Under the pieces are notes generated by a model, which had not been told where the DNA came from, did not search any database, and saw nothing but the letters and a program-made list of their open reading frames with translations. From Gammaproteobacteria bacterium (GTDB lineage Bacteria; Pseudomonadota; Gammaproteobacteria; Steroidobacterales; PWYM01): a DNA stretch of 56,277 nucleotides. The number at the start of each line of letters is the position of its first letter. Position 1 is the first letter of the stretch. Below, in pieces: positions 1-38,583 of this stretch. The translations under genes and the position numbers were made by a program. The stretch is taken from contig RECU01000049.1 in NCBI GenBank assembly GCA_007693855.1, forward strand, positions 1 through 56,277, in the 5' to 3' direction.

Positions 1-1766
1 CCTGGCTCGAGCGCATCCAGGCCGCGGAACTGACTGCGCTGGACACCGAGACCACCAGCCTGGATTACATGCAGGCCGAACTGGTGGGCCTGTCGCTCGC
101 CGTGACGCCCCACGAAGCCTGTTACATCCCGCTGGACCACCGCTACCCGGGTGCGCCCGACCAGCTCGACCGCGACACCGTACTGGCGCGGCTGAAACCC
201 TGGCTGGAGGATGCCGACGCCGCCAAGGTCGGCCATCACCTGAAGTACGACGCGCACGTGCTCGCGCATTACGGCATCGAACTGCGGGGCCAGCGCTACG
301 ACACCATGCTCGAGTCCTACGTGCTGAACAGCGTGGCCACGCGTCACGACATGGATTCCGTGGCGGCCCGTTACCTGGGCGTCCAGACCACGAGCTACGA
401 GAGCATCGCGGGCAAGGGCGCGAAGCAGATCGGCTTCGAACAGGTGGCCCTCGAGCAGGCCGCCCCTTACGCCGCCGAGGATGCCGACATCACGCTGCAG
501 CTCCATCACGTGCTGTGGCCGAAGCTCGAAGCCGCAGGGCGGCTGGCAGAGGTGTATCGAGAGATCGAGCAGCCGCTGGTACCCGTGCTCACACGCATGG
601 AACATGCCGGCGTACTGGTGGACCGCAAACGCCTGCAGCGCCAGAGCGGCGAACTCGCCGAGAAGATGGCGAGCGTGGGGGAACAGGCCTGGGCGGCAGC
701 CGGTGGTGAATTCAACCTCGGCAGCCCCAAGCAGCTCCAGGAAATCCTGTTCGAGCGCCAGGGCCTGCCGGTGCTGCGCAAGACACCGAAAGGACAACCG
801 TCCACGGCGGAGGACGTGCTCGCGGAACTGGCCGAGGACTACGAACTGCCGCGGGTGATCCTCGAGTACCGCAGCCTCTCCAAGCTCAAGTCCACCTACA
901 CCGACAAGCTCCCGGAGATGATCAACCCGCGCACCGGACGCATCCACACCTCGTATCACCAGGCGGTGGCGGCCACCGGCCGGCTGTCCTCCTCGGACCC
1001 GAATCTGCAGAACATCCCGATCCGCACCCCGGAAGGCCGACGTATCCGCCAGGCGTTCATCGCCCCGGAAGGCCTGCGCCTGATTGCCGCCGACTACTCG
1101 CAGATCGAGCTCAGGATCATGGCGCATCTGTCCGGTGACGAGGCCCTGCTCGAGGCCTTCGCCAGGGAGCGCGACATCCACCAGGCCACGGCCGCCGAGG
1201 TGTTCGGCGTCGCGCTCGATGCCGTGACCGGGGAGCAGCGACGCTCGGCCAAGGCCATCAACTTCGGGCTGATTTACGGCATGTCCGCCTTCGGGCTGGG
1301 TCGGCAGCTGGGCATCTCTCGCCAGGAAGCACAGCACTACGTCGACACCTACTTCGAGCGGTATCCGGGCGTGGCCCGCTATATGGAAGACACGCGACGC
1401 AAGGCCCGCGAGGACGGCTACGTGGAAACCGTGTTCGGCCGCAGGCTCCATCTGCCCGAGATCAATGCGCGCGACGCCCAGCGCCGCCAGTACGCCGAGC
1501 GTTCAGCCATCAACGCGCCGATGCAGGGCACCGCCGCCGACATCATCAAGCGCGCCATGATCGATGTCGATGCGTGGCTGCAGTCCGGTGCCACCAAGGC
1601 CCGACTGATCATGCAGGTCCATGACGAGCTGGTGCTGGAAGCGCCCGAGGCTGAAGCCGATGAGCTCGCACAGGCGCTGGCCGCGCGGATGGAGGCGGCC
1701 GCCGAGCTGCGCGTGCCGCTACGGGTCGACGCCCGTCACGGCGCCAACTGGGACGAGGCGCACTGA
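1..1766 (+). CDS. polA: DNA polymerase I, 3' part (5' end outside window)
   Basis: Replication and repair polymerase. The frame is open from base 3, so the gene enters from the left; about 587 residues are present of the usual ~900. The N-terminal 5' nuclease domain is missing from view. The 3'-5' exonuclease domain is first: Exo I is DTETTSLD (bases ~45-68), Exo II HHLKYD and Exo [11 protein letters not shown], so the proofreading acidic residues look intact. The polymerase domain follows with motif A ([17 protein letters not shown]), motif B ([19 protein letters not shown]) and motif C (QVHDELVLE). The C-terminal His-containing end is normal for the family. A perfect 16-bp inverted repeat follows the stop codon. 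Identification is secure. Confidence 0.97.
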
Positions 1767-1830: not shown

Positions 1831-4386
1831 TCAGAACCGCCAGGTCGCCGTCGCGCCCACCTGGCGGAGGTTCGGCAGCGTCACCCCGAAATCACGAATG
1901 AAAAACGGGTTGAAGCCGGCGAAGGGGCTGCCACCCAGTGGCGGCTGTCCGGGCGGCAGGCCAGGCTGGCTGGCATCCACGTATCGGAGCACGTCCACCG
2001 GCGTGCGGTTGTTGAAGGCGTTGTTGACGAACACCGTGAAGGTCCACTGCTCCGCGTCCAGCCCCGCGCGGAAATTCCACAGGTTGCTGCTGCCCATCTT
2101 CGCCAGGTTGTGTACCTGGACGTAACGCGAGCCCTCGATGCTGTAATCCGCACGGAAAAAGAACTCCGGATTGCCGGCGATCAGGTTCACCGGATTGCGG
2201 AACGTCGCCGACAGCGTGCCCGAGTGCCGCGGCACTCGGGGCAGTTCGTTGCCCGAGACGTCGCCCGCCGCGAGATACGCGTCGAGGCACGGACCCACGC
2301 AGGGCACGATCGGCGCGCCGGCCGGATAGTCGGTGAAGATCAGGTCGGCCTGGTCGAGGCTGAAGAACTCCTTGATCTTGCTGTCCATCACCGACCAGGT
2401 CGCCCGCACGTCCCAGAAGTCGTTGAGCACGTAACGCAGCTCGGCCTCGAAGCCCTTCACCTCGCTCTGGCCGAGGTTGCGGGTGTAGGAGGTGACGAAC
2501 TGACCGCCGCCTTCCTGGGCGGTGGCCTGGTTTTCGGTCAGCTGCTGGTTGGTCCAGTCGATGTAGTAGGCCGAGAGATTGAACAGACCCCGGCCCTCGG
2601 CGAACGTCGACTTCAAGCCGATCTCGAAGGTGTCGGCTTCTTCTTCGTCGAAACTGCTGAGGCCCTGGTCACGCAACTGCTGGCGCGCCTGCGGCGTCAG
2701 TCGGGCGTTCTCCACGGCGGAGTTGAACCCGCCCGGTTTGTTGCCGCGGGCCCAGAGTCCGTACAGCGTGACATCCGGGTTCAGCAGGTAGGTGATCGTG
2801 AAGCGCGGCAGGAAGCTCGTGAAGGTCTCGCTGAGGTCTATCGGGTTGCTGCAGCTGACGGTGAACAGCGGCGAGCCCGGGAACAGCGGCGTATTGGTGC
2901 AGAACTCGCTGCCGGGAATCGGTGTCGGCGCCGTGCGATTGAAGTTGGAGATCCCGCTGGAGCTGACCTTGTCGCGGGCATAGCGCGCCTCGGCGGTCAG
3001 CGTCAGCTGGTCGTTGACATCGAACTCCACCATCGCAAACAGCGCCTGGTTCTCCACCTTGGCCCCACCGACCTGTGGCGTCAGCGCGGCAGGCGCGCCG
3101 GTGGCGACGGTCCCCGCGAGATCCCCCGAGAACCGGTCACCGTCCTTTTCGTTGTAGTAATACAGGCCTGCCAGCCAGCGAATGCGCTCGTCGCGCGGCG
3201 AGAGAATCTTCAGCTCCTGGCTGTAGTCCCGCGCGCCCTTCTCCCGGCTGATGGTTTCAAACGCGCCGGCCGAACCGCGAATCCCGGAGTAGTCCTGGTC
3301 GACGGCGCTGTAGAGCGAGGTCTCGTTGTAGGCGGAGACGGAGCTCAGCAGATAGCCGCCCAGATCCCAGTCGAGGCTCAGGCTGTAGCGGAATGACTCG
3401 CGCGTCAGCCCGGCGTCGAAGCCCGCTTCGGCGAAACCGTCGGTGTTCAGCGCGAGCGGGGTCGGCTCACCGAGGGTGCCGCAGAAATACCCGCGCTGGC
3501 GCGTCGAGTAGATCGGCGTGCCGGTGAAGGGCGGGCCGGAGACGCCCACCTGCGTGGGCAGAAAGCAGTTGTTGTTGTCGCTGCCGTACAGCGTGATCGG
3601 GAAGTGTTCGTCGTCATTGCGGGTCCAGTTGAAGCGCAGCATGGCCTCGAAAGTCTCCGTGGGCAACCAGTAGAGCGTACCGCCCGCCGAGCGCGTTTCC
3701 TGGCCACCGACATCCTTCCGACCGGTGACGGTGTTGCGATAGTAGCCATCCCGCTCGAAGAAACGCGCATTGGCCTGGAAGAGCAGCTGATCGCCAAGCA
3801 GCGGACCGCCGATACTCCCCGCAGTTTCCAGCCAGCCGTTGTCGCCGAGGGTGCCGGTGACCCGGCCGCTCAGCTCGTCGCCAGGCCGGCGGGTGACATA
3901 GTTGATCGCACCGGCGAAGGTCCGCCGGCCGTACAGCGCGGACTGCGGCCCGCGGATCACCTCGACGCGCTCGAGATTGTCGAGGTCGTAGCCACTGATC
4001 GAACCCGAGACGAAAATGCCGTCGATGAAAAACGAGGCGTTGGGCTCACCCTGGATGTTCGACTGGCCGCGGATGACCGGCCGGTCGCCGGTGCGCCCGA
4101 ACGCCGAGCGGAAAGAGAACCCGGGGGTCTGCTGGGCAAGATCCTCCACCGAACGCAAGCCCGCATTCTCGATATCCTGCGCCGTGAAGGCACTGATCGA
4201 CAGCGGCACCTGCTGCAGCGACTCCTCGGCACGACGGGCGGTGACGACGATCTCCTCCAGCGCGCGAGCGCCGGGCTGCTGGGCGTGAACAAGACCCGGC
4301 AGGATCGCGAGCGGCACGGCGGCGGCGGCCGATGCGGCCAGCAGGCGACGGACCGACGTACGAATGACGTTCGGTGTGACTGACAT
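1831..4386 (-). CDS. TonB-dependent receptor
   Basis: Outer-membrane active transporter of unknown substrate, 851 residues. Start chosen at base 4386 (ATGTCAGTC) because GGGGAGA lies just upstream; an upstream in-frame ATG (4407) would place the ribosome site inside the gene. Signal peptide ends near VHAQQ. A TonB box-like EEIVVTARR follows, then the plug domain (RGQSNIQGEPNASFFIDG, then RVEVIRGPQSALYG) and a long beta-barrel ending in the aromatic WRF typical of outer-membrane proteins. It belongs to the large receptor family common in oligotrophic Gammaproteobacteria. It and the next gene lie on the minus strand between polA and engB, where relatives have only a small RNA, which suggests insertion at this locus. 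Confidence 0.93.
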   Translation of the reverse strand: MSVTPNVIRTSVRRLLAASAAAAVPLAILPGLVHAQQPGARALEEIVVTARRAEESLQQVPLSISAFTAQDIENAGLRSVEDLAQQTPGFSFRSAFGRTGDRPVIRGQSNIQGEPNASFFIDGIFVSGSISGYDLDNLERVEVIRGPQSALYGRRTFAGAINYVTRRPGDELSGRVTGTLGDNGWLETAGSIGGPLLGDQLLFQANARFFERDGYYRNTVTGRKDVGGQETRSAGGTLYWLPTETFEAMLRFNWTRNDDEHFPITLYGSDNNNCFLPTQVGVSGPPFTGTPIYSTRQRGYFCGTLGEPTPLALNTDGFAEAGFDAGLTRESFRYSLSLDWDLGGYLLSSVSAYNETSLYSAVDQDYSGIRGSAGAFETISREKGARDYSQELKILSPRDERIRWLAGLYYYNEKDGDRFSGDLAGTVATGAPAALTPQVGGAKVENQALFAMVEFDVNDQLTLTAEARYARDKVSSSGISNFNRTAPTPIPGSEFCTNTPLFPGSPLFTVSCSNPIDLSETFTSFLPRFTITYLLNPDVTLYGLWARGNKPGGFNSAVENARLTPQARQQLRDQGLSSFDEEEADTFEIGLKSTFAEGRGLFNLSAYYIDWTNQQLTENQATAQEGGGQFVTSYTRNLGQSEVKGFEAELRYVLNDFWDVRATWSVMDSKIKEFFSLDQADLIFTDYPAGAPIVPCVGPCLDAYLAAGDVSGNELPRVPRHSGTLSATFRNPVNLIAGNPEFFFRADYSIEGSRYVQVHNLAKMGSSNLWNFRAGLDAEQWTFTVFVNNAFNNRTPVDVLRYVDASQPGLPPGQPPLGGSPFAGFNPFFIRDFGVTLPNLRQVGATATWRF

Positions 4387-4635: not shown

Positions 4636-5442
4636 TCAGTCGCCCGGCAGACGCCGGAGCTGCACCACCCAGTCGTCCTGACCGAGTTCGTCATCATTGA
4701 CCACGGCAAAGCTCTTGTTGCGAGCTGCGGGTTCGGTCAGCACCGCAATCGTCAGCCAGGCCACGTCGGCCCGTGAAATCAACGCCCTGCGGTAGTCCTC
4801 GCGGCGACTCACGCGGATGCCACTGCGCCGGGCAGGACCATCCACCAGTCCCCCGGGCCCGATAATGGTGTAGTCGAGACCGCTGGCACGCAGGTAGGCC
4901 TCGCCCTTGGTTTTCCAGAACAGCACGTAGCCGAGGCGGGGATTGTCGCGGTGGTCGCGGTGGGGACCTGCGGCCGCGGAGGAGATGAGGACGAAGTGCC
5001 GTGCGCCCGCAGCATTCGCGGCATCCACCAGGTTGCGCACGCCGCCATAGTCCACGAAGCGCGGGCTGTTATCGCCACGCCACTCGCGCGCGCCGATGGC
5101 GCTGATCACGTATTCCACGCCGACCATGGCGGCCGCCACCGCTTCGGGATCACGAACGTCGACCTCGAGCCAGTCGATATCCAGACCGGTGCGTTCGCGG
5201 GCATGGAAAGCATTGGTCGTCAGCGGGCGGACGCGGTAGCCCTGGTCGAGCAGTTGCGTGACGACATGCCGGCCCGTCTTGCCGGAGGCGCCGGCGACGA
5301 GCACCACCGGACCGGCCGCCCGCATCGGATCGGTGGCGGCCGTCCGTTCTGTGGTGTGCCCCACGACGAGCGCCAGCGCCGCCACCAGGGCGCCCAGCCC
5401 CTGCACCTGCCATCTGCGCATGCGAACCCCCTGTCTGCTCAC
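4636..5442 (-). CDS. NAD(P)-binding atypical short-chain dehydrogenase-like protein, exported or membrane-anchored
   Basis: 268 residues. After an N-terminal hydrophobic segment (GLGALVAALALVVG, about residues 15-28) comes a Rossmann dinucleotide-binding motif GASGKTGR, then the features of NAD(P)H-binding NmrA/HSCARG-like proteins (DIDWLEVDVRDPEAV, ISAIGARE, HFVLISSAAA). The active-site Tyr-x-x-x-Lys of classical dehydrogenases is not evident, so a catalytic role is uncertain; such proteins can act as redox sensors or isomerases/reductases. A second start (ATG at 5421) is equally possible. Minus strand, 249 bases upstream of the TonB receptor start, so co-transcription is possible but the receptor seems to have its own promoter. 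A cytosolic family member with a signal-like N terminus is unusual. Confidence 0.8.
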   Translation of the reverse strand: MSRQGVRMRRWQVQGLGALVAALALVVGHTTERTAATDPMRAAGPVVLVAGASGKTGRHVVTQLLDQGYRVRPLTTNAFHARERTGLDIDWLEVDVRDPEAVAAAMVGVEYVISAIGAREWRGDNSPRFVDYGGVRNLVDAANAAGARHFVLISSAAAGPHRDHRDNPRLGYVLFWKTKGEAYLRASGLDYTIIGPGGLVDGPARRSGIRVSRREDYRRALISRADVAWLTIAVLTEPAARNKSFAVVNDDELGQDDWVVQLRRLPGD

Positions 5443-5468: not shown

Positions 5469-5497
5469 GGAACTCAGCCCGCTGGCGAGAGTCTCAA
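5469..5497 (+). promoter_or_regulatory. Sigma-E-like promoter for the small RNA at 5504-5635
   Basis: GGAACTC (5469-5475) and TCTCAA (5492-5497) are separated by 16 bases. The sigma-E/AlgU consensus is GGAACTT-N15-17-TCTGA or TCAAA. The predicted start lies near 5503-5505, at the foot of a perfect hairpin. P. aeruginosa ErsA, which occupies the same locus, is driven by this class of promoter. Match is by eye. Confidence 0.5.
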
Positions 5498-5503
5498 CTC
5501 TCG

Positions 5504-5635
5504 AGTGCTACCCCTGCACTCGTGGTCCGCAATCCTCCCTTGTGCGGGCCCGCTGCCCGGCAACCCCACGCCGGGAGTTGCGCCCCGGAGTGGCACGGCG
5601 CGGTCACGCGTCGATGCCCCCGGGGCTTTTTTTTT
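5504..5635 (+). ncRNA. Candidate trans-acting small RNA at the Spot 42/ErsA locus
   Basis: About 130 nt, between a sigma-E-like promoter and an intrinsic terminator. Hairpin 1 pairs 5502-5508 with 5516-5522 (7 bp, loop TACCCCT). Hairpin 2 pairs 5527-5531 with 5543-5547 and exposes ATCCTCCCTTG, which contains CCTCC, complementary to a Shine-Dalgarno. Hairpin 3 pairs 5556-5561 with 5570-5575. The terminator GCCCCCGGGGC plus T9 is at 5616-5635. In E. coli spf (Spot 42) and in Pseudomonas ErsA lie between polA and engB on the polA strand; this has the same strand and the same engB neighbour. No primary-sequence match to either could be tested. No convincing protein is encoded here. Confidence 0.6.
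5616..5635 (+). terminator. Intrinsic terminator of the candidate small RNA
   Basis: GCCCCCGGGGC (5616-5626) is followed directly by nine T (5627-5635). Wider pairing between GTCGA (5610-5614) and TCGAC just downstream could extend it. The T-run lies on the plus strand, which implies a plus-strand transcript ending here although the nearest genes are on the minus strand. Confidence 0.65.
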
Positions 5636-5690
5636 GCCGGGTCGACACTGCGCCATGACCCGAGGCTTTGCAAGCCCGGGAAACGGGATA

Positions 5691-6326
5691 TCACTCGATC
5701 GGCCGCGGGGTGGCCAGCGTCGCATCAGGCGCCGGCATGAGGGCCTCCAGCGCCTGACGCGCTTCTTCCACTCCCTGACGCGCCAGCGCTGAGAACAGCT
5801 GCACGCTGCCGGCAGACGGCTCGAGCTCACGGCGCACCTCGGCAAGTGTCCGCGCCGCCACGCCGCGGCTGAGTTTGTCAGCCTTGGTCAGCAGCACATG
5901 CACCGGGCAGCGGGCACCCGCCGCCCAGGCCAGCATCTGGCGATCGTAGTCCATGAGTCCACGGCGGCTGTCGACCACGAGCATCAGACCTGTCAGGGCG
6001 CGGCGGTCCGTGAAATACCCCTCCATCAGCCGCCGCCAGTGCCGCTGCATGGCCTCCGGCACCCGCGCGAAGCCGTAACCGGGGAGATCGACCAGTCGCC
6101 GCCCGCCCGTGACGGCATCGTCAAGAGCGAAAAAATTCACCAGCTGGGTGCGGCCAGGGGTCCGGCTCACACGGGCGAACTGCCGTCGGCCGACAATGGC
6201 ATTGAGCGCGCTGGACTTCCCCGCATTCGACCGTCCGGCGAACGCGACTTCCATGCCCTCGTCGGGCACGAACTGGCCCGGGCTGTGGGCGCTCTTCAGA
6301 AAGCTTGCGGCGGGGTAGGCTGACAT
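5691..6326 (-). CDS. engB: Ribosome biogenesis GTP-binding protein EngB (YihA/YsxC)
   Basis: Essential GTPase acting in assembly of the large ribosomal subunit. 211 residues, family length. G1 is GRSNAGKSS, the switch region TPGRTQLVNFF follows, G3 is DLPGYGFARV, G4 is LLTKADKLSR and G5 is near LFSALARQG, all in order. Divergent from cytochrome c4 (137-base gap) and downstream on the opposite strand from polA, as in Pseudomonas and E. coli. Identification is secure. Confidence 0.96.
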   Translation of the reverse strand: MSAYPAASFLKSAHSPGQFVPDEGMEVAFAGRSNAGKSSALNAIVGRRQFARVSRTPGRTQLVNFFALDDAVTGGRRLVDLPGYGFARVPEAMQRHWRRLMEGYFTDRRALTGLMLVVDSRRGLMDYDRQMLAWAAGARCPVHVLLTKADKLSRGVAARTLAEVRRELEPSAGSVQLFSALARQGVEEARQALEALMPAPDATLATPRPIE

Positions 6327-38162: not shown

Positions 38163-38310
38163 GGATGGGTTCTCCGCCGGACGCGCCAACCCGCACGACC
38201 GACCTTGCAACGGCTGACGTGCGACGGAGAGGGTCAGGCAGAGCAGAGGGCGCGCGAAGCCGCGCACTCGAGACCGGCCCGGTGTTGCCCTCCGCAACAC
38301 GTGGTGCATG

Positions 38311-38506
38311 CATCAGGCCGGTCTACGGGCTCACGCGTGATGCAGCAGCTGCATCCGGCTGACCACCTTCCCATGCAATCGCACAGTGGCGTACGGCCAG
38401 CCTTGACGTCGTTTACCGTTGCGGGGGCAGCACCGGGGTTGTGCAAAGTGAGCGCTCTGCACGCACCGGTTTCCCGATTATTTCCGCTCAACGCGGAACA
38501 CCTGAA
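38311..38506 (-). ncRNA. Cobalamin riboswitch (aptamer)
   Basis: Reading the minus strand from 38506: CAGGTG, then GCGGAAATAATCGGGAAACC and GGTGC; then the B12 box core GCTGCCCCCGCAACGGTAA; then GCCACTG, GGGAAGGTGG; then GAGCCCGTAGACCGGCCTGA at the 3' side. These are the conserved aptamer elements in order. It lies about 150 bases upstream of btuB. Downstream (38282-38300) is a 7-bp hairpin displaying GGAGG in its loop, then a GCGCG/CGCGC hairpin (38252-38265); no T-run is present, so control is probably translational or Rho-dependent. Ligand binding represses btuB in this family. The 38163-38583 gap holds this element and no gene. Confidence 0.95.
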
Positions 38507-38583
38507 GCGGGCGGGAAACTAGCACGCGCGAAACCGCGGGGTCAATTTCGCCAGCGGCGAGCGGCCTGTCGCCCCAGGCTGCG

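Follow-up and report, generated by a model that had tools for sequence, protein, structure and literature searches.

A small RNA gene with anti-Shine-Dalgarno-like loops at the polA-engB locus of a Steroidobacterales genome, and its probable place in a class-wide family with sX13 and anti-hemB

The small RNA sX13 has been described as exclusive to the Xanthomonadaceae and as always lying downstream of polA; it accumulates in high salt and at 37 °C, and its loops repress targets with G-rich motifs in a manner independent of Hfq, as shown with GFP fusions (PMC3771888). The alpha-r7 RNAs of alphaproteobacteria also lie at the polA locus and have three hairpins with C-rich loops (PMC3771888). ErsA is located in the polA-engB intergenic region under the control of the ECF factor sigma-22 and pairs through a U-rich single strand (PMC8575079), while Spot 42 is under CRP-cAMP control according to the title of a reference cited in PMC3771888. 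The RNA ncS04 of Burkholderia cenocepacia is transcribed and co-purifies with Hfq (PMC4603805, PMC5688073), and is arranged as BCAL0264 <- ncS04 -> BCAL0265 <- (PMC4603805). Here we describe a small RNA gene in a 56,277-nt stretch of DNA (the window) from a gammaproteobacterium of the order Steroidobacterales, and compare it with these systems.

The gene lies on the plus strand between a gene for an NAD(P)-binding protein and engB, and is preceded by an ECF-type promoter. The features of the locus are listed below (RBS, ribosome-binding site; SL, stem-loop; R1, the covariance model described further on).

69-1766, plus strand: polA (DNA polymerase I), the ancestral upstream neighbor (Pfam PF00476)
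1831-4386, minus strand: TonB-dependent receptor gene between polA and the RNA, with RBS ACAGGGGAG predicted to pair with the SL2 loop (Pfam PF00593, PF07715)
4636-5421, minus strand: NAD(P)-binding protein gene, divergent from the RNA, with G-rich RBS CAGGGGGU (Pfam PF13460)
5469-5475, plus strand: -35 element GGAACTC of the ECF/sigma-E-type promoter (motif; conserved ahead of homologs, with a spacing that varies little in most)
5492-5497, plus strand: -10 element TCTCAA, after a 16-nt spacer (conserved in homologs)
5503-5635, plus strand: small RNA gene, about 131-133 nt, start predicted (R1 match, fold)
5502-5522, plus strand: SL1, 5' hairpin of 7 bp with loop UACCCCU (fold; the helix covaries in homologs)
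5524-5550, plus strand: SL2, 8 bp including one G-U, with an 11-nt anti-Shine-Dalgarno-like loop AUCCUCCCUUG at 5532-5542 (fold; covariation)
5556-5575, plus strand: SL3, 6-bp core with loop AACCCCAC at 5562-5569 (fold; covariation)
5582-5635, plus strand: intrinsic terminator, a long G+C-rich hairpin (5582-5626) followed by T9 (5627-5635) (sequence, fold; outer stem kept and covarying)
5691-6326, minus strand: engB (yihA) GTPase gene, the convergent downstream neighbor (Pfam PF01926)

An earlier, sequence-only reading of this DNA had proposed a sigma-E-like promoter GGAACTC-N16-TCTCAA, a terminator with T9 and an RNA of about 130 nt starting near 5504. The letters and coordinates of the promoter were verified, the T9 tract was found at 5627-5635, and the proposed length and start agree with the predicted start at 5503/5504. 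The same reading had described three perfect hairpins, one with a C-rich 11-base loop. Three non-terminator hairpins do fold, but there are four with the terminator counted and SL2 contains a G-U pair; the 11-nt loop is that of SL2, but the loops of SL1 and SL3 are C-rich too. The fold energy of 5500-5640 is -77.5 kcal/mol, compared with -58.9 ± 3.7 kcal/mol in shuffled sequences (z = -5.0). The window holds a single GAACTY-N16-TCTNA site, where 0.02 would be expected, and no second site was present in the 345 kb of the same genome that were scanned. Elsewhere in the window, a cobalamin riboswitch lies at 38299-38520 on the minus strand (102 bits).

Two inserted genes separate polA from the RNA, while engB adjoins it in convergent orientation. 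In relatives of the order outside the genus the RNA lies directly after polA (for example at loci L009 and L015) and before engB. Three members of the genus (G000, G001 and G002) have the TonB receptor and the NAD(P)-binding protein between polA and the RNA, and in a further genome (G003) only the NAD(P) gene of the pair was found. This distribution fits the earlier suggestion that a receptor gene pair entered on the polA side, and the comparison of loci agrees with the placing of the small RNA gene at the polA-engB locus in the same orientation as E. coli spf.

To follow the element through the order, we searched for engB in 59 relatives and took the DNA adjoining it. The element was found in 40 of these, with a shared layout of GGAACTTT, about 15 nt, TCTNA, a 5' hairpin, a CUCCC-loop hairpin, a CCCC-loop hairpin and a terminator. 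The plain MAFFT alignment of the relatives has 21 consensus pairs, 17 of them with compensatory changes. The covariance model R1, whose E-values are rough because of a short calibration, was built from the alignment of the order relatives; its consensus leaves SL1 unpaired, and this hairpin was therefore tested separately. R1 matches 214 of 247 genomes and 55 of 62 genera of the order, and scores 71.4 bits (E = 5e-16) at 5500-5634 on the window RNA, which is itself in the R1 seed. Among 79 R1 matches from the order and the class, 95.1% of cells pair and 20 of 21 pairs have changed on both sides, counts that lean toward structure as the alignment was fitted to R1, with the plain MAFFT alignment giving the same trend. 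The covariation score of these homologs is 0.495, compared with 0.175 when shuffled and about 0.10 with slid partners. Double changes occur in all seven pairs of SL2 and all six of SL3, and in 25 of 26 pairs once the SL1 pairs are added by hand. Folding each sequence was uninformative for SL1 (76 of 79 fold, but so do 70% of shuffles), and the pair counts were used instead.

At aligned columns the loop cores are conserved at 99-100% (CUCCC) and 93-100% (CCCCA), and are steadier than the stems, suggesting that it is the loops that do the work. The sequence-only reading had looked to a loop kept across relatives for support, and had named drift without compensatory changes as the finding that would speak against it; the loops proved near-invariant, and the paired changes are the opposite of such drift. 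The RNA structure is under selection, and 5503-5635 is a real small RNA gene, as had been proposed. The RNA is absent between polA and engB in all sampled members of order families f12 and f3 (genus g17; L006, L008, L050-L052), apparently through losses in these lineages. In the genus of the window (window 5509-5515 and 5582-5626; L002, L003, L005) a CCCC loop is carried on SL1, and the terminator loop has lost the C run (CCCCUGUA type) that relatives commonly have; here the C-rich motif seems to have shifted from one hairpin to another.

We used R1 to search the class, taken in the GTDB sense as Gammaproteobacteria including the betaproteobacteria. At E <= 0.01, 188 of 369 genomes matched, many of them below 1e-12, while the rest of the phylum gave only weak matches (E >= 9e-5), which we took as the noise level. 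Weak matches elsewhere in the host's own genome (E >= 0.006) have no C loops, fall inside genes or at gene ends, and were set aside as noise. Synteny was not used in the search; engB and/or polA nevertheless stands beside the RNA in 26 of the 30 class-search loci fetched, a set that includes the window itself and three genomes of the order. In a Xanthomonadaceae-like family (f195), R1 matches 39 of 41 genomes at E <= 1, of which 38 remain at E <= 0.003; polA adjoins the RNA in 27 of 29 loci, and 10 of the 20 R1-found loci scanned pass the cut-off of the Rfam sX13 model (RF02232). The cut-off of the anti-hemB model (RF02837) is passed by some of the R1-found class loci, among them three intermediate loci (L058, L060 and L073) with R1 scores of 73-82 bits. 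One of the class loci that score as anti-hemB, L094/L124, has the layout hemB <- RNA -> engB <-, the same orientation as that reported for ncS04 of B. cenocepacia. Further carriers were found by pattern scan in Burkholderia, Cupriavidus, Variovorax, Nitrosospira, Methylovorus, Vogesella, Azoarcus, Ectothiorhodospira and others.

At some loci the small RNA is repeated in tandem, with between two and four copies in head-to-tail order (G227:C33:13148-13903; G334:C8:6557-7495; L073; L077; L177:1754-2065 in Ectothiorhodospira mobilis and L191:674-909 in Nitrosospira briensis, with two copies each), which suggests sibling RNAs with diverged loops. A betaproteobacterial-like genome (L095; G635:C10:720992-721274) has two copies that pass the anti-hemB cut-off and, close to them, a third, away from engB and beside an integrase-like reading frame; this may be a mobile or relocated copy.

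The promoter travels with the RNA. A GAACTT-(15-17)-TCTNA site (at least 8 of 10 positions) stands upstream in 95% of order loci, a figure biased in that these were mostly found by a GAACT pattern, and in 83% of class, 76% of named and 96% of f195 loci, sets free of that bias; random segments have such a site in 2-4% of cases. The spacer is usually 16 nt and the distance from site to RNA is mostly constant. The envelope-stress-type (ECF sigma-E) regulation put forward by the sequence-only reading is borne out to the extent that the motif is conserved with the RNA in 76-96% of loci. The genome encodes RpoE, above the NCBIfam cut-off, and Hfq. A site near-identical to the promoter of the RNA, GAACTT-N16-TCTAC, precedes rpoE (L302:1422-1448), starting 73 bases upstream of the likely start codon, and is probably its autoregulatory promoter, as expected of an autoregulated sigma-E. 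In two genomes of order family f15 (L013 and L022) the ECF site has weakened or shifted, and sigma-70-like elements, such as TTGAAC-N17-ATAAT-like in L013, were seen by eye at the position that it takes elsewhere; one family, represented by L013, thereby departs from the ECF pattern. It is possible that the regulator changed there while the RNA was kept.

Taken together, we put a probability of about 0.8 on the reading that the window RNA is the local member of an old, class-wide polA/engB family that takes in sX13 and anti-hemB/ncS04, and that it is transcribed by RpoE and masks G-rich RBSs with its loops. From the gene, structure, conservation, promoter and family links computed here, and the genes for RpoE and Hfq, a mechanism can be outlined. 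Envelope stress would free RpoE, and the RNA would be transcribed from the conserved GAACTT-N16-TCTNA-type promoter. Its predicted fold has a 5' hairpin, then two hairpins that display CUCCC and CCCCA in their loops, and finally a U-tailed terminator. Similar to the anti-Shine-Dalgarno end of 16S rRNA, the loops would pair with the G-rich RBSs of chosen mRNAs, and this pairing would block translation, possibly with the help of Hfq. Hfq use may not be general, since sX13 works without Hfq. The Hfq-linked control of outer-membrane proteins suggested by the sequence-only reading may apply here, given one known relative that binds Hfq (ncS04) and another that acts without it (sX13).

Candidate targets were ranked among 165 genes, crudely called over part of the genome. 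GGGAG occurs near the start of about 9% of these, so pairing would be selective. The RBS of the TonB receptor, ACAGGGGAG, is predicted to pair with CUCCCUUGU of SL2 over 9 bp at -15.2 kcal/mol, which places it tenth among the 165 genes; for pairing with SL3, the NAD(P) gene comes third. These ranks are to be read with the fact that any strong, G-rich Shine-Dalgarno site is inherently suited to pairing with a loop of this kind. These values make the neighboring receptor mRNA a plausible candidate target and are suggestive of the NAD(P) gene as another; the receptor RBS in genus member G002 pairs less well than that of the window. The RBS of hfq, a target of sX13, has no G run in the host genome.

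A family on this scale has to be weighed against convergence, in which the RNA is real but sX13, anti-hemB and the window RNA arrived independently at a shared locus and at C-rich hairpins, R1 merely recognizing G+C-rich hairpins followed by a terminator. The stems are G+C-rich, R1 gives matches outside the class at E-values of 1e-4 to 1e-3, and the window RNA passes neither the sX13 nor the anti-hemB model of Rfam. Against this, matches in the class reach 1e-12 to 1e-19 and fall mostly at polA/engB with synteny left out of the search, the same promoter recurs at about the same distance, and the anti-hemB cut-off is passed by the intermediate loci, whose R1 scores are 73-82 bits. We consider convergence unlikely. 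An extremely improbable account is that the hairpins are chance features of a short coding gene or of a neighbor's untranslated leader: each strand does have open frames overlapping the region, but all hairpins carry compensatory changes, the loops are invariant, and the RNA has a promoter and terminator of its own between a convergent engB and a divergent NAD(P) gene. Indels between homologs would shift any frame, and the coding reading was rejected on covariation and indels.

The sequence-only reading had taken the RNA for the local Spot 42/ErsA. In its strict form, this would make it an orthologue of one of these, closer to them than to sX13 or anti-hemB and with an enterobacterial-type single-stranded pairing region. 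Locus and orientation are those of spf, ErsA occupies the polA-engB region (PMC8575079) and is under sigma-22 control, and three Pseudomonas-like loci (L100, L101 and L107; identity inferred) share the promoter type and match R1 at a weak 22-26 bits. These ErsA scores lie far below those of sX13 or of many class loci (70-80 bits), however, and Spot 42 had no match in the Rfam scans, nor did R1 match at the E. coli or other Spot 42 loci (L099, L116, L123). Shared position and orientation thus stand from the earlier identification, kinship with Spot 42 does not, and a distant kinship with ErsA is weakly indicated by the R1 scores and the similar promoter; strict orthology is very unlikely. The closest relatives, sX13 (RF02232) and anti-hemB (RF02837), had been missed.

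Returning to the class-wide family, we suggest tentatively, at somewhat less than even odds, that a single ancestral sigma-E-driven small RNA with anti-Shine-Dalgarno loops lay between polA and engB early in the broad Gammaproteobacteria. sX13, anti-hemB/ncS04 and the window RNA would be its direct descendants and ErsA a strongly altered one, and Spot 42 would have taken its place in the enterobacterial/vibrio line, bringing a new promoter and a new mode of pairing. If the class-wide family itself is right, a great many genera carry an unannotated stress RNA to which the sX13 results are transferable as hypotheses, and the old question of what makes small RNAs so frequent in the polA-engB gap can be tested as one of descent, not coincidence. 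In the open-access literature the wider family has so far been noticed only piecemeal, as sX13 in relatives of Xanthomonas and as anti-hemB, the latter filed in Rfam as a Burkholderia RNA.

Among the known systems, Spot 42 (spf) of Enterobacterales and Vibrionaceae occupies the same gap in the same orientation, but has no C-rich loop hairpins, unlike the window RNA. The ErsA-type, Pseudomonas-like loci have a C-rich terminator loop, and the CUCCC hairpin was not seen there. The alpha-r7 RNAs are alike by description only, R1 giving weak matches outside the class. sX13 shares with the window RNA the polA locus and hairpins with C-rich apical loops, and the f195 (sX13-type) loci have a similar ECF-type promoter upstream. 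sX13 (RF02232) has three C-loop hairpins, the last being the terminator hairpin, whereas members of the window genus have no C run in the terminator loop but do have one in SL1; SL1 of f195 has a conserved ACGCAACGG not seen in the window RNA, and engB, which adjoins the window RNA, is not beside the RNA in the f195 loci seen. Anti-hemB/ncS04 (RF02837) lies beside engB in convergent orientation, as does the window RNA, and has the same UCCUCCCUGA type of SL2 loop; it is shorter (105 nt in B. cenocepacia), and hemB replaces polA upstream in anti-hemB loci, while no hemB was found at the window locus. The Rfam scan of the window gave nothing at Rfam cut-offs for the small RNA: its best match is anti-hemB (25.3 bits, E = 4e-4), below the gathering score of 49.5, and it has no match to the sX13 model (gathering score 50). 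Our claim is that the window RNA lies outside RF02232 and RF02837 as Rfam draws them and that all three belong to one wider family, in which a single model from a different, largely uncultured order recovers both sX13 and anti-hemB at the same locus and with a similar promoter.
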